DNA of 43,718 bases from positions 1-43,718 of the forward strand of contig WGDA01000139.1 of assembly GCA_015493505.1 (NCBI GenBank). Direction: 5' to 3'. Source of the DNA: Pseudomonadota bacterium (GTDB lineage: Bacteria; Desulfobacterota; S145-22). Positions 596-6,624 of this stretch are shown in pieces (positions within the stretch are counted from its first letter, which is position 1; every line of letters starts with the position of its first letter). The notes beneath the pieces were generated by a model. It was not told the DNA's origin, ran no database searches, and was given only the letters and a program-made list of their open reading frames with translations. Position numbers and translations under genes: made by a program.

Positions 596-2299
596 ATGGT
601 ATTACGAGAGGAACATCCGCATCGGAAATCCATGAAACGTCTGGCAGAATTCATCACAGTTCTGGTCCTGGTGTTCACGTTGTTTTCCGCCACGGTTCAC
701 GCGAATGAACCGGCCGAAATGATGTTGCTCCGGGTCAAACCCGCGGTGGTCTTTATTGGGTCGGTCGTCAAAGGAATCGTAAAGATCAACACGAAGAGCG
801 GGCCCAAAATATTCAACGATATGGGGATTGGCTCTTCCGGGTCGGGTTTTATCATCAATCCCAATGGCTACATCTGCACGAACGGGCACGTGGTCCAGTA
901 CTATTACGAGAAAAACGACAAACAACTGGAGCGAATGTTTCTCATGCAGGTCATTCAGAAACATTTTCTCCCGAAACTGATCAGTTCAGGTAAAATCTCG
1001 AACGACCCCGCAAGCATCAAAAAGGCCATGTTGCAGTTGTACGCAATCCTGAAACCCAAAACCGTGGTGGAGATCAAGAAAAACCTGTTCGTCTATCTCT
1101 CCAACAAGAAAAGATATCCGGCGGAGGTCAAGGATTACAGCCCCCCCATGGGCCAATACCCGGGCAAAATCGATATTCCCGGTTTCCAGTATGAATCGGA
1201 AACCGGAAAGGATATCGCGATCATAAAAATAGAGGCCAAGGACTTGCCCACTGTTGCCCTGGGAGATTCCAGCACGGTGCAACTGGGTGAAACTATCTAC
1301 GCGGCTGGGTACCCGGGAGTAGTTTTTCAGCATTTACTGCTGCAGAAAAGCCTGGCAAACCTTCTGGACTGCACCGTGACCGTCGGGCACATCTCCGGGA
1401 AAAAACTCTCGGCCACCGGGGCGTCGCTCATCCAGACGGACACACCTATCACCCATGGAAACAGCGGGGGCCCCGATTTCAACACGAAGGGGGAGGTCAT
1501 CGGTATGTCCACCCTCGCCAGCGTGCAAAAAACCGCCTCGGGATACCAGCAGATTCAGGGTTTCAACTTCCTGGTTCCCATTAACACCGTTAAAGAGTTC
1601 ATCGCCCGGGCCGGGATCAAGACAGGGGTGCAAAGCCTCTTCAACAAGCTGTGGGTGCAAGCCCTGGAGGCGTATCGGAAACAAGACTGCCAGGGGGCGA
1701 TGAAGTATTGCGACGCCGTCCTGAAGCTTATGCCGGGTCAGCCGGATGTCCTGAAACTGCAGCGTTTGACACAGGAAAAAATCACAAAGGGAGAATGCCC
1801 CGTTCCCATGAAGAAGATTATCCTCTATGTGGCGATTGGCGTCATTATCCTGATTATCCTGATCGTCATCTTCATCCTGATGCGTCGGAAGGGGCGTCAG
1901 GAAGAACCCCTCATGGCAGAAGCGGCCCCCGCCAGTCAGGTCGAAGAGGCCACGGTCATCGAAAAACCGGCTGAAATACCTGCCACCCTCGGGTTTCTCA
2001 TCGGAAAAGAAGGCCCCCTGTCTGGAAAAACCTTTGAAATTTCCAAAGAGGGGCTCAAGATCGGGCGGGATCCCGCCAAATGCGATATCGTGATCGAAAA
2101 CCCGCACGTCTCCAGGGAGCACGCCTGGGTGGGAGAGGAAAACGGCCAGAAGATGGTAAAAGACCTCGCTTCGGCCAACGGAACCTTTTTAAACACCCTC
2201 TCCCATCAGATCAAGGCGGAAACCTTGAGCCCGGGAGATATCATTATTATTGGAAAAGGAAAGATGGCCAGCTTCGTCTACAAGAAAACGCGTGAATAA
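596..2299 (+). CDS. HtrA/DegP-like periplasmic serine protease fused to a cytoplasmic FHA domain
   Basis: Encodes 567 residues. After an N-terminal hydrophobic signal segment (about 16-36, ending near VHA) comes a trypsin-like domain with the whole catalytic triad visible: His98 in TNGHVV, Asp206 in GKDIAII and Ser290 in HGNSGGP. There is a long insertion between His and Asp (about 104-195) and no PDZ domain. Residues about 350-400 resemble a TPR helix pair, 407-429 form a strong membrane helix followed by RRKGR, and 466-563 form an FHA domain with IGRD, SREH and NGT. By the positive-inside rule the protease should be periplasmic and the FHA domain cytoplasmic, where it could bind phospho-Thr made by the kinase encoded next. 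The ATG at 596 follows AAAGGGAGGGG (581-591); a second ATG at 632 (residue 13) would also keep the signal peptide. Protease substrate unknown. Confidence 0.88.
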   Translation: MVLREEHPHRKSMKRLAEFITVLVLVFTLFSATVHANEPAEMMLLRVKPAVVFIGSVVKGIVKINTKSGPKIFNDMGIGSSGSGFIINPNGYICTNGHVVQYYYEKNDKQLERMFLMQVIQKHFLPKLISSGKISNDPASIKKAMLQLYAILKPKTVVEIKKNLFVYLSNKKRYPAEVKDYSPPMGQYPGKIDIPGFQYESETGKDIAIIKIEAKDLPTVALGDSSTVQLGETIYAAGYPGVVFQHLLLQKSLANLLDCTVTVGHISGKKLSATGASLIQTDTPITHGNSGGPDFNTKGEVIGMSTLASVQKTASGYQQIQGFNFLVPINTVKEFIARAGIKTGVQSLFNKLWVQALEAYRKQDCQGAMKYCDAVLKLMPGQPDVLKLQRLTQEKITKGECPVPMKKIILYVAIGVIILIILIVIFILMRRKGRQEEPLMAEAAPASQVEEATVIEKPAEIPATLGFLIGKEGPLSGKTFEISKEGLKIGRDPAKCDIVIENPHVSREHAWVGEENGQKMVKDLASANGTFLNTLSHQIKAETLSPGDIIIIGKGKMASFVYKKTRE

Positions 2300-2332
2300 G
2301 GGCACCTTGTCGATGTTATGTGAAAACGGGTG

Positions 2333-4003
2333 ATGTCTCTTTTAGGCACTGTTATAGGTGACTACAAGATCCTTCGGAAGATCGGTTCCGGGGGAATGGG
2401 GGTGGTATATCAGGGGGTTCATGTTCGTCTGGATCAGCCCGTCGCCATCAAGGACCTGGCTCCCGAGCTGGCCTCCGACCCTGAAATGCGACAGCGGTTC
2501 ATCCGTGAAGCCCGAATCCAGGCGCAACTGAACCATCCGAATGTGGTCAACGTTCATAACCTCCTCGAACATGAGGGGCGCCTGCTTCTCGTGATGGAGT
2601 TCGTGGAGGGGGAAACCCTCGACAAACTTATCCAGGAGAGGGGCGCCCTTCCGTATGACAAGGCGATTGGCATTTCCCGACAGGTTCTCGACGCCCTGTC
2701 GTTCATGCACGCCAAGGGGGTCATCCACCGGGACCTGAAGCCCGGGAATATCATGCTTGCCGAAGGGAACCGGGTCAAGGTTACCGATTTCGGCATCGCA
2801 AAGGCAACCCGGGAAAAGGGTCAAACCCGGGCCGGCGTAAGGCTTGGTACCCTCTGGTACATGTCCCCGGAACAGATCAAAGGAAACTCCGTGGACGCCC
2901 GAAGCGATCTTTACGCCATGGGGGTCACCCTGTTTCAGATGGTCACAGGCAAGCTGCCGTTTTTTGGAAATTCTGATTTTGAAATCATGAAGGCCCACAC
3001 GGAAGTGGCCCCGCCCGACCCCAAGAAAATCAAGAAGGACATTCCCAAACCGCTTTCAGGCATCATCCTGAAGCTTCTCGAAAAAAACCCCGATCAGCGT
3101 TTTCAGACGGCGGACGAGGTGTTGAACGCGCTAAAAGGTATCCAGCCGTTCGCCAAAGTGCAAGAGACCCCGCTTAAAGCCGGCAAGGCCAAAACAGGCT
3201 TGAGCTTTCCGAAAGAGCTCACCTTCTCTGACAAGGCCCCTCCCCGCTGGATCTGGATTCTCATCGCCGCGTTACTGGTTGTGGCAGGCGGAATTGTCCT
3301 GACTTACTGGCTTCTCAACAGAAAATCATCCATTATCCCTGTGGTACAAAAACCGACAATCGAAAGGAGTGTGACTGCCACATCGAATCCTCCCACCTCC
3401 CCACAGAAAACGGTTCAGGGAGAAGAAAAGACTCCATCCGGCGGTGAAGGCGAAGAGAATGTTGCACCAATCCTCGAAGAAATTGAGCATGAAAAGGGGC
3501 CCTCTAAACCCGAAAAAGCGGAGAACACGAAATCCGCCCCCCATGAAAACGAAAAGGGGCTTGAAAACGCCCCTGAAAAGAACGTGGCGCAACCCAGCTC
3601 ATCCACCAGGGGAACTGTAGCTGAAATGAGCCCTTCGGGGAGACTGAAGCACCCCTCTTCGCCGTCATCAAAAAGCGCCGGAATACAGAAAAAAAAACCC
3701 TCCACTACCCATCATAAAAGACATCCAAAAAAGACAGTGGTGGAGATGTCGCCATCAGGCAGCACTGTAAGGGGGGAGAAACGGCACGTTGCCGCATCCC
3801 ACCCTGGGACGAAGGCCCAGAAGAAAACCAATCAAAAAAAAGAGGAAAAGATTTATATCAACAAGCGGCTGGGGTACTTTTTCAAATCACTCAAAAAATC
3901 CCTCAAAAACTTGGAACATTCCAAACCTAAAGGGCAATCGACTTCCAGCCATTCTTCGAACCAGGAGGGAGAGAGTGATCTCGATGAAACTTTTAGAAAC
4001 TAA
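2333..4003 (+). CDS. Membrane-anchored PknB-type Ser/Thr protein kinase with Lys-rich external tail
   Basis: Encodes 556 residues from the ATG at 2333; a GTG one codon earlier (2330) is also possible, and residue numbers here count from it. The kinase domain (about 10-270) has the glycine loop GSGGMGVVY (19-27), Lys41 in VAIKD, HRDLKPGN (133-140, catalytic Asp135), DFG (153-155) and SPEQ in place of APE. It should therefore be an active Hanks-type kinase phosphorylating Ser/Thr. A membrane helix lies at about 307-328. The remaining 230 residues lack PASTA repeats; they are rich in Lys, Ser, Pro and Glu and carry two copies of VEMSPSG or VAEMSPSG. This tail would sit in the periplasm and may bind an anionic polymer or an envelope partner, which is inference. 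It follows the protease gene by about 30 nt and precedes FHA and phosphatase genes, as one operon. Confidence 0.9.
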   Translation: MSLLGTVIGDYKILRKIGSGGMGVVYQGVHVRLDQPVAIKDLAPELASDPEMRQRFIREARIQAQLNHPNVVNVHNLLEHEGRLLLVMEFVEGETLDKLIQERGALPYDKAIGISRQVLDALSFMHAKGVIHRDLKPGNIMLAEGNRVKVTDFGIAKATREKGQTRAGVRLGTLWYMSPEQIKGNSVDARSDLYAMGVTLFQMVTGKLPFFGNSDFEIMKAHTEVAPPDPKKIKKDIPKPLSGIILKLLEKNPDQRFQTADEVLNALKGIQPFAKVQETPLKAGKAKTGLSFPKELTFSDKAPPRWIWILIAALLVVAGGIVLTYWLLNRKSSIIPVVQKPTIERSVTATSNPPTSPQKTVQGEEKTPSGGEGEENVAPILEEIEHEKGPSKPEKAENTKSAPHENEKGLENAPEKNVAQPSSSTRGTVAEMSPSGRLKHPSSPSSKSAGIQKKKPSTTHHKRHPKKTVVEMSPSGSTVRGEKRHVAASHPGTKAQKKTNQKKEEKIYINKRLGYFFKSLKKSLKNLEHSKPKGQSTSSHSSNQEGESDLDETFRN

Positions 4004-4025: not shown

Positions 4026-4526
4026 ATGATTTGTCCATACTGTGGAGCCACGTTACCGGATGGGTCCAAAACCTGCCGTGATTGCGGAAAACCCTTGCGT
4101 CCCGCTGGCTCGGCTAAGACAGAGATCGTCGCGGAAAACCTTTCAAACGCGGGCACAACCTCCGTCTTTCCGGAAGAGACCCTTGAAAAAACCCAGATTC
4201 TCTCTGAAGGGCTGGAACCCGTGGGCCCCTTCCTTGGCTGGCTTGTGATAATGGAAGGCCCCGACCAGTGGAAAGAATTTCACATCCCGGCGGATCCGGG
4301 GCAGCTTCTCGTGGGTCGGGGCGAAGCTGCCGACATCAGACTAAACGACGATACCCTTTCCAGAATTCACATCAGCATTCGAAAAAAGGACGAGGAATTT
4401 TACCTGACCGACCTGGACTCCGATTCGGGCACCCGGGTCAACGGCAAACCTGTCGAACGCGTTAAGCTGCAGGACGGGGATCGCATCCAGATTGGAAATA
4501 CCACCATCGCTTTCAAAATCCTGTAG
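4026..4526 (+). CDS. Zinc-ribbon plus FHA domain protein
   Basis: Encodes 166 residues. The first 26 contain CPYCG and CRDCG, a four-Cys zinc ribbon of the double-zinc-ribbon type, followed by a linker rich in Thr/Glu (about 30-70; its EKTQ and EETLEKT stretches could hold phosphorylation sites). Residues about 75-166 form an FHA domain: VGRG, LSRIHISI and a DSGTRVNG turn. No signal peptide or membrane helix is seen, so it should be cytoplasmic. FHA domains bind phosphothreonine; the position between kinase and phosphatase makes it a likely substrate or adaptor of this kinase, similar in principle to GarA or Fha-type readers. The ATG at 4026 follows AGGGGG (4014-4019). The molecular output is unknown. 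Confidence 0.85.
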   Translation: MICPYCGATLPDGSKTCRDCGKPLRPAGSAKTEIVAENLSNAGTTSVFPEETLEKTQILSEGLEPVGPFLGWLVIMEGPDQWKEFHIPADPGQLLVGRGEAADIRLNDDTLSRIHISIRKKDEEFYLTDLDSDSGTRVNGKPVERVKLQDGDRIQIGNTTIAFKIL

Positions 4527-4541: not shown

Positions 4542-5501
4542 ATGAAAAACCGGATTCAGGCATTTTCCCTGACTGACGTTGGACGAACCAGGAAGAACAA
4601 TCAGGATGCCTGCGCGGTTTTTATCAGGGGAGAACGCCTCCTCATGGTTGTGGCTGATGGGGTCGGGGGTAACAAGTGCGGGGAAATCGCCAGCCGGCTG
4701 GCGGTGGAAACGCTGAAAAGCGCGTTCGAAGGGTCTGCTCCAGATTCCCCTCGGTCATTTCTCGTCCAGGCGACGGAAGAAGCCAACCAGCGCATCCGCG
4801 CCTACGTGGGCACGCATCCGGAATGCCGGGGCATGGCCACCACCCTGGTTGCCGCCCTGATTCAATACCCCGCCCTTCACCTCATTCACGCGGGAGACAG
4901 CCGCGCTTATCTCCTTCGGAGAGGGTTATTGAAGAAGGCCACCGAGGACCACACGCTCGTTCGGAAGATGGTAAAGGAAGGGCTGTTGACCCCGGAGGAA
5001 GCGAAACGGCATCCGAAACGCCACGTAATTGTCAACGCCCTTGGGATATCAGACACCCAACCATACGATTACACCTGTTACGACCTGGAGCCGGGAGACC
5101 AGGTGCTACTCTGTTCCGACGGGTTATATGATGAGTTACCTGACGAAAAAATACGGGATATCCTGCTCAAACACGAGCCGAAAACCGCTGTCCGGGCGCT
5201 GGTCGATGAAGCCAATGCCTCGGGAGGTCATGACAACATTTCCATTACCCTGGCGGTAGTGGAAAGCGCCGGACTCACGGACACGAAACGCCTGGAACCG
5301 CTTTCCACACCGGATACCCAAAGAAACCGGGGTATGAGGTGGCTGGCAGTCGCGCTCATCCTGTGCGCCATGGCGTTGGGGGCGTGGATTTTCTCGCGTA
5401 CCCCTGTGGGCCACCGGGCCCGGAAAACCCTCACTTCACTGTTCAGGGGTACCCCTTCCGCGGAAAAAGCATCCCCCAAAAAATATGGCTCAACCCCCTG
5501 A
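4542..5501 (+). CDS. PP2C-family (PPM) protein phosphatase with C-terminal membrane anchor
   Basis: Encodes 319 residues. PPM motifs are all present: GRTRKNNQD (Asp22), VVADGVGG (Asp39), GMATT, AGDSRAYL, SDGLYD (192-197) and GHDNIS (229-234); the metal-binding aspartates are conserved, so activity as a Mn/Mg-dependent Ser/Thr phosphatase is expected. Unlike the usual stand-alone 240-residue form it carries a C-terminal membrane helix (about 266-284) and a short basic tail, which would hold the catalytic domain on the cytoplasmic face beside the membrane kinase encoded upstream. It starts 15 nt after the FHA gene with only a weak ribosome site, suggesting translational coupling. It is the last gene before a terminator and probably reverses the action of the kinase. 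Confidence 0.9.
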   Translation: MKNRIQAFSLTDVGRTRKNNQDACAVFIRGERLLMVVADGVGGNKCGEIASRLAVETLKSAFEGSAPDSPRSFLVQATEEANQRIRAYVGTHPECRGMATTLVAALIQYPALHLIHAGDSRAYLLRRGLLKKATEDHTLVRKMVKEGLLTPEEAKRHPKRHVIVNALGISDTQPYDYTCYDLEPGDQVLLCSDGLYDELPDEKIRDILLKHEPKTAVRALVDEANASGGHDNISITLAVVESAGLTDTKRLEPLSTPDTQRNRGMRWLAVALILCAMALGAWIFSRTPVGHRARKTLTSLFRGTPSAEKASPKKYGSTP

Positions 5502-5607: not shown

Positions 5608-6624
5608 ATGATGGAAACAATCAAAGCTGTCTGCCTGTTTTCAGGGGGACTCGACAGTATTCTCGTGATCAAGATATTGGAATCACAAGGGATTGACGTC
5701 AAGGCCGTGATGTTTGTATCGCCCTTTTTCGAAGACAGGTCTCTCGGCAGCCCTGCCACCCTCATTGAAACTGCCTGGAAAAAGTGGCAGATCACCCTCG
5801 AGGTGGTTGACCTTACAGAGCCCTATTTTCCCATGCTGAAATCCCCGCCTCATGGATACGGGAAAAACCTCAATCCCTGTATCGACTGCAAGATCTTGAT
5901 GCTCAAAAAGGCAAAGAAGCTAATGGAAAAGACGGGGGCGCGGTTTATCGCAACCGGAGAAGTCATCGGCCAGCGCCCCATGTCTCAGCGGCGAGACACC
6001 ATGCGCATCATCGAAAGAGACTCTGGACTGGAGGGACTGCTCCTGCGCCCCCTTTCGGCAAAGCTCCTGCCAGAAACCATCCCGGAAAGGGAGGGATGGG
6101 TCGATCGGGAGTCTCTCTACGACATTTCGGGAAGAAGCCGCGCGCGGCAGATGGCGCTGGCGGAAAAATTCCAGATCAGGGAGTATCCCTCTCCCGCCGG
6201 AGGGTGTATCCTGACAGATCCCGTGATTTCCAAAAGGATTGAATATATGTTAAAAGAGCAGGTTGAAATACAGGCGGACGATATCGCGTTATGCAGGGTG
6301 GGGAGGCATTTTGTCTGGGATGACGGCACACACCTGATCGTCGCGAGAAACCAGGCTGAAAACGCGCGCCTAACTTCTCTCGCTCCCCGTGGGCAAACGC
6401 TTTTAAAGGTCAGGCACTTCCCAGGGCCGTTGGGCCTTTTTTCCAGCCGTGGCCCGGATTCCGCCAAACTTCTGACTGCCGCGGAAATCGTTTGCCGATA
6501 CAGCAAAGCGCGCCACGAAAATTCCGTGGAAGTTCAGGCGACTGAGGTAAAAAGCGGGCGTGAAAGAATACTGACCGTCACCCCCCGCTGGGAGCTGAAT
6601 GGCATTGGATGCAGTCACCTATAA
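5608..6624 (+). CDS. PP-loop ATPase, MnmA/ThiI-like putative tRNA thiolation protein
   Basis: Encodes 338 residues. An N-terminal ATP-pyrophosphatase loop SGGLDS (12-17) is followed by NPCIDCK (90-95), a GEVIGQRPMSQ segment and AGGCILTDP (197-205). This layout is that of bacterial PP-loop proteins often annotated as tRNA 2-thiouridine or 4-thiouridine enzymes, whose C-terminal part resembles the NFACT-R/DUF814 fold. By family knowledge it should adenylate a tRNA base and transfer sulphur with the help of its cysteines; Cys91, Cys94 and Cys200 are candidates. It is neither canonical MnmA nor full ThiI (no THUMP domain seen), so the exact target base is uncertain. The double ATG (5608, 5611) follows the terminator hairpin described above. 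The next gene begins 16 nt later. Confidence 0.75.
   Translation: MMETIKAVCLFSGGLDSILVIKILESQGIDVKAVMFVSPFFEDRSLGSPATLIETAWKKWQITLEVVDLTEPYFPMLKSPPHGYGKNLNPCIDCKILMLKKAKKLMEKTGARFIATGEVIGQRPMSQRRDTMRIIERDSGLEGLLLRPLSAKLLPETIPEREGWVDRESLYDISGRSRARQMALAEKFQIREYPSPAGGCILTDPVISKRIEYMLKEQVEIQADDIALCRVGRHFVWDDGTHLIVARNQAENARLTSLAPRGQTLLKVRHFPGPLGLFSSRGPDSAKLLTAAEIVCRYSKARHENSVEVQATEVKSGRERILTVTPRWELNGIGCSHL

Follow-up and report, generated by a model that had tools for sequence, protein, structure and literature searches.

Gene locus and domain architecture

The open reading frame at positions 596-2299 of the window (the whole stretch of 43,718 nucleotides analysed here) encodes an HtrA-like protease that is joined through one transmembrane (TM) helix to an FHA domain. 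Three genes follow on the same strand, encoding a Ser/Thr kinase, a zinc-ribbon and FHA protein (ZnR-FHA) and a PP2C phosphatase, and the four genes are separated by gaps of only 30, 22 and 15 bases (Table 1).

Table 1 Positions of the protease/FHA gene, its features and the downstream operon genes in the window
Feature	Position	Strand	Basis or detail
Whole gene: signal peptide, HtrA-like protease with insert, TPR-like hairpin, TM, linker, FHA	596..2299	+	567 aa
Probable Sec signal peptide, residues 1-37	596..706	+	Hydropathy and AlphaFold helix 10-33; cleavage site inferred
Trypsin_2 / HtrA catalytic core, residues 82-304	839..1507	+	Pfam E 2.4e-24; Foldseek HtrA1
Catalytic His98	887..889	+	Motif NGHVV; alignment
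Two-helix part of His-Asp insert, residues 108-155	917..1060	+	Alignment; AlphaFold2
Catalytic Asp206	1211..1213	+	Motif GKDIAII; alignment
Catalytic Ser290	1463..1465	+	Motif GNSGGP; alignment
TPR-like helical hairpin, residues 348-397	1637..1786	+	Weak Fis1_TPR_C match below cut-off; predicted helices
Single TM helix, residues 405-431; RRKGR cytoplasmic	1808..1888	+	Hydropathy, AlphaFold2
Disordered juxtamembrane linker, residues 432-464	1889..1987	+	pLDDT <50 at 433-460
Thr453, candidate phosphosite in T-x-[IV]-E	1952..1954	+	Invariant in five orthologues
FHA domain, residues 465-563 (Pfam core 488-553)	1988..2284	+	R491, S506, R507, H509, N528 present
Hanks-type Ser/Thr kinase, TM at 307-325, K/S/P-rich extracytoplasmic tail	2330..4003	+	Pkinase E 6e-62
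ZnR-FHA, conserved Thr motifs KTEIV, TTSVF, KTQI	4026..4526	+
Stp1-type PP2C phosphatase, C-terminal TM 267-285	4542..5501	+	244 bits vs cut-off 230 (Stp1/IreP)

The original prediction described this protein as an HtrA-like protease with an intact triad and with an FHA domain in place of the usual PDZ domains, encoded in front of a kinase, a second FHA protein and a phosphatase. This description is borne out at each point. The three catalytic residues sit exactly in their motifs and are invariant or nearly so in an alignment with 28 other proteases. The protease core is recovered by both Trypsin_2 and structural searches, the FHA family is matched over residues 488-553 (E 1e-13), and Pfam matches up to E = 1 include no PDZ family.

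The hydrophobic stretch at the N-terminus (residues 16-34) is preceded by KR and has VHA-NE beyond its end, which is the pattern of a Sec signal peptide. Between the catalytic His and Asp, the protein carries about 75 extra residues relative to DegP-type proteases. A second hydrophobic helix (residues 408-426, Kyte-Doolittle value 3.55) follows the protease and is itself followed by RRKGR.

The linker between this helix and the FHA domain was compared across five orthologues that are 38-78% identical. Only 3 of its 34 columns are invariant, namely P438, T453 and E456. The motif at Thr453 reads TVIE, TQIE, TRVE, TLVE and TRVE in the five proteins, and from these five sequences Thr453 is a candidate phosphosite. 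The GR, SxxH and NG residues of the FHA domain (R491, S506-H509 and N528-G529) are invariant in the same set.

Predicted structure and membrane topology

An AlphaFold2 model of the monomer was computed from 29 aligned sequences, leaving out the row of a Nonomuraea homologue described below, and reached a mean pLDDT of 83.7. It predicts a protease, a single helix (405-431) and a separate beta domain (466-563), the latter forming the FHA sandwich, with a disordered linker at 433-460. The insert between His and Asp is modeled as a helical hairpin (helices 108-131 and 138-155), and three further helices ahead of the membrane (348-361, 365-378 and 383-397) form a hairpin region resembling TPR repeats. 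The top Foldseek matches were the protease domains of HtrA1, MucD and DegS, with E-values down to 2.8e-16. TM-scores normalised by the target were about 0.5-0.8, and those normalised by query length were low because a single domain aligns.

Taken from the N-terminus, the signal peptide, the protease, a single helix with positive charges at its C-terminal end and the FHA domain place the two domains on opposite sides of the membrane, which agrees with the original prediction. Based on sequence and model, the protease domain is predicted to be exported beyond the inner membrane, and the FHA domain to be cytoplasmic. We assume that the outside compartment is the periplasm, given a Gram-negative envelope.

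The operon and the kinases, phosphatases and FHA proteins of the genome

The genome that contains the window comprises 2.80 Mb in 174 contigs and is 99% complete. Across this genome, the operon kinase is the sole strong Pkinase match (212 bits), the other three matches being partial and reaching at most 37 bits. The operon phosphatase is likewise the only Stp1-type match. Three FHA proteins were found, two of which are encoded in the operon and one on contig 129. Judged by known families, the writer, the eraser and most of the readers of phosphothreonine are therefore encoded in one operon. The sole-strong-kinase status, together with the signal peptide, the His-Asp insert, the TPR-like hairpin and Thr453, had not been part of the original prediction.

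The kinase scores 331 versus 450 bits with the model for PASTA kinases of the PknB family, over its kinase domain only, and no PASTA repeats were found with Pfam. The kinase has an extracytoplasmic tail of ~230 residues that is basic, disordered and of low complexity. The tail (window 3305-4000) contains V[AV]EMSPSG repeats, and VEM[ST]PSG is seen in two genomes of the same family (G003 and G005).

In ZnR-FHA, Thr45 and Thr56 are invariant in seven proteins, with the sequence TTSVF in the window. Its FHA domain carries Ser or Thr at the canonical Asn of the NG motif, and the FHA domain of the protease is therefore the more canonical phosphothreonine reader of the two.

The third FHA protein (G000:C129:45835-46023; L090:5713-7251) reads from its sequence as FHA-GAF-HD-GYP, and its gene adjoins that of a KUP-type potassium transporter in two genera. 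It might connect the single kinase to cyclic-di-GMP. Separately, positions 5608-6624 of the window encode a ThiI-like sulfurtransferase-type protein fused to an NFACT-R RNA-binding domain, and this gene lies adjacent to the operon in several relatives.

Conservation across genomes

Orthologues with the full architecture were found at 73-78% identity in three genomes of the window's family (G001, G003 and G005) and at 38% over the length in a genome from another family (G257). Because of this conservation in three genomes and again in a fourth, the architecture is not a chance arrangement. An assembly artefact was ruled out as well, as several separate genomes agree. Among 395 genomes from across the phylum, in each of which the best few candidates were scored, full two-domain matches were confined to the window's family and G257, although divergent fusions may have escaped this scoring. 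Most trypsin matches in relatives were ordinary DegP proteins and were discarded, including the one with the best E-value outside the family (L010). No relative of the window protein was found on viral contigs, and no plasmid record covered at least 80% of either the window protein or the G257 protein.

The gene order of protease/FHA, kinase, ZnR-FHA and PP2C is the same in G001, G003 and G005, with the G001 contig cut at both ends. The linkage with the kinase and phosphatase thus extends to relatives, as the original prediction required of a functional connection: in four genomes of the family all three partners are encoded next to the protease, and G257 has the same parts list in a different order. 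More specifically, the G257 cluster runs FHA, FHA, PP2C (partly masked as N), kinase, protease/FHA and second kinase. A second soluble FHA protein of G257 (L085:5095-5589) has ATRVE ahead of its FHA domain, the same motif as in the protease linker. Searches of other genomes from the order of G257 gave no match to its protease/FHA protein and, for the cluster's kinase, only matches of at most 45% identity, which makes the cluster look like a unit. On these comparisons, the data suggest that the cluster was gained or differentially lost as a unit.

One genome of the window's own genus (G002) keeps the kinase and the PP2C, and the gene for ZnR-FHA is gone. Its protease is a remnant that matches residues 241-342, has its GNSGGP motif replaced and lacks the FHA part. 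No FHA domain was found in this metagenome-assembled genome. These absences have to be read against its completeness of 95% and contamination of 7%, but the contig with the remnant is syntenic with the window. The whole module appears to be decaying there (L038:3730-6412, on contig 299): the kinase tail is shortened too, and the PP2C frame stops before its TM helix, with similarity running on past the stop.

In another genome of the family (G004), a frame at the start of contig 192 (L087:2-496), upstream of ZnR-FHA, ends in a PDZ domain (E 4.6e-13) followed by a tail that resembles the C-terminal tail of the window kinase. The N-terminus lies off the contig. In all probability this is a kinase whose PDZ domain lies outside the cytoplasm, so that the HtrA-type module would sit on the kinase.

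A conflict or defence system, for which FHA and trypsin-like domains are described in PMC7159879, was considered and rejected: the passages on FHA in that article deal with different effector architectures, and the operon lies amid housekeeping genes.

Proposed function and alternative readings

We give a probability of about 0.5 to the reading that the protein acts at the membrane as the effector of a closed phosphothreonine circuit, in which a switch of the FhaB/GarA kind is fused to an HtrA protease. In such a circuit, the FHA domain likely binds a phosphothreonine made by the operon kinase. The site could be the kinase's own activation loop or juxtamembrane region, as for FHA proteins with PknB and PknG. 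It could also be Thr453 in the protein's own linker, phosphorylated after kinase docking, which would constitute an intramolecular switch of the GarA/OdhI type. Docking, or a switch at Thr453, would alter the clustering, the partners or the activity of the protease at the membrane. Extracytoplasmic proteolysis would thereby be turned up or down, the PP2C phosphatase would reverse the step, and information would flow mainly from the inside out.

The reading is supported by the domains, triad and topology, by the single strong kinase and single Stp1-type PP2C of the genome, by the conserved gene order and the G257 cluster, by the invariance of Thr453 and Glu456, by the canonical FHA residues, and by G002, where the protease remnant lacks its FHA part and the genome has no FHA domain; OdhI and FipA/FhaB, described below, provide precedents. 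Several observations weigh against it. An ectodomain with a TM helix and no FHA domain exists in Nonomuraea, so the protease needs no FHA control in general. The protease also appears dispensable to the core pair, since G002 keeps kinase and phosphatase without it. Furthermore, one TM helix and a disordered 28-residue linker make a poor conformational lever, and clustering would be needed. In the most specific version, kinase docking and phosphorylation of Thr453 would be recognised by the FHA domain of the same protein and would gate proteolysis across the membrane, with the PP2C as the off switch. We hold this tentative proposal to be possible rather than probable.

The FHA domain might instead act as a scaffold only. 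It would bring a quality-control protease that is always active to the places where the kinase acts, such as division or envelope synthesis, and catalysis would be left unregulated. In mycobacteria, FhaA and FhaB have been tied to division, to elongation and to the localisation of FtsZ (PMC3989709, PMC11898655), and the FhaB model aligns with the protein from the TM helix through the FHA domain (residues 412-556), with a score below the cut-off. This arrangement would leave the invariant Thr453 unexplained, though a docking phosphosite might fit, and the genes next to the operon include none identified as serving division or the wall. We consider it somewhat unlikely.

Signalling could also run from the outside in. 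The protease would then cut an extracytoplasmic target, possibly the kinase tail, while the FHA domain keeps it bound to the kinase in its active state, and proteolysis would report to the kinase or reset it. FHA docking would indeed put the protease and the kinase tail on one side of the membrane. The end of the tail, GxF[FY][KQ]S[LI][KR]KS, is conserved in those genomes of the window's family (f1) that have an intact protease and is missing in G002. However, one deletion in G002 could account for the loss of both the end of the tail and the adjacent FHA gene, and the first kinase of G257 is almost without a tail. We consider this direction of flow unlikely.

Finally, the protein could be an ordinary envelope-stress protease in which the FHA domain serves as a protein adaptor independently of phosphorylation or persists as a passive remnant. 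We consider this very improbable. Homologues without FHA exist (L093, L086), and Nott et al. 2009 (cited as reference 4 in PMC8546545) indicate by their title that some FHA domains are phospho-independent, but the canonical phosphothreonine-binding residues are all present down to the orthologue of 38% identity, and the kinase and phosphatase genes stay linked to the protease gene across genomes.

For the reading as a phosphothreonine circuit, Thr453 provides a concrete and mutable candidate site, and the writer, eraser and readers of the window genome seem few enough for complete testing. Bacterial Ser/Thr kinases usually sense outside the cell and phosphorylate inside. If the circuit holds true, phosphorylation would have a route to act back across the membrane, through a membrane protease that reads phosphothreonine in the cytoplasm. 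A gated protease, if true, would place the extracytoplasmic proteome under the direct control of Hanks-kinase signalling.

Comparison with known systems

HtrA proteases are textbook enzymes, and the window protein shares with the HtrA/Deg proteins (Do family, DegS, HtrA1 and MucD) the protease fold, the triad, the GNSGGP motif and the location in the envelope. It differs from them in its lack of PDZ domains, its helical His-Asp insert and its cytoplasmic FHA domain. The TM helix is C-terminal, whereas that of DegS is N-terminal. The protein scores 98.6 versus 416 bits with the Do-family model TIGR02037, every Do-family cut-off lying far above it, and falls below the cut-off of the DegS equivalog (64 versus 423 bits).

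The ectodomain also resembles that of an actinobacterial protein, from Nonomuraea gerenzanensis (L093:4542-6260), which has a comparable insert, a TPR-like hairpin and a TM helix and is 30% identical over 355 aa, from the ectodomain through the start of the TM helix. In contrast to the window protein, it continues into a cytoplasmic proline-rich tail without FHA. A protease in G385 has a comparable insert and neither a C-terminal TM helix nor FHA. By comparison of these three proteins, an HtrA membrane protease with the insert and no PDZ domain may be older than its fusion to FHA in this lineage.

FHA and trypsin-like domains in one protein are already known from Bacteroides thetaiotaomicron NP_811686.1 (FHA-FHA-trypsin; PMC2605481), where, unlike here, two FHA domains lie N-terminal, ahead of the protease. 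The trypsin table of that article contains no architecture with FHA C-terminal to the protease. A literature search on dedicated phrases found no FHA/protease fusions, and a protease outside with FHA inside, beside a kinase, was not found in the literature searched; databases across all phyla may hold it.

A TM-FHA protein in a kinase/PP2C operon is known as well (FhaB; PMC3989709, PMC11898655). The actinobacterial FhaB/FipA (Rv0019c) resembles the window protein in its TM helix, linker and FHA domain and in an operon with a kinase, a second FHA protein and a PP2C, and its interaction with PknA requires the FHA domain (PMC3989709). The alignment with the FhaB model runs almost end to end, at 57 bits versus an NCBIfam cut-off of 125. 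The window protein has a protease ectodomain in place of the short N-terminus of FhaB, and rodA and pbpA were not seen with its operon.

The linker resembles that of GarA and OdhI in layout: a conserved Thr lies in a disordered stretch directly ahead of the FHA domain. GarA is among the best PDB sequence matches of both operon FHA domains, the TTSVF sequence of ZnR-FHA matches the GarA peptide ETTSVF (PMC8546545), and the protease/FHA protein scores 52 versus 200 bits with the OdhI equivalog, below the cut-off. For GarA and OdhI, autophosphorylated PknG is the docking partner of the FHA domain, and this docking strongly promotes phosphorylation of the ETTS motif; OdhI is phosphorylated about 45-fold better than the isolated peptide because its FHA domain is the kinase docking site (PMC8546545). 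The title of reference 4 in that article speaks of an intramolecular switch. GarA is soluble and regulates metabolic enzymes, whereas the switch proposed here would sit on a membrane protease and use a different motif, T-x-[IV]-E.
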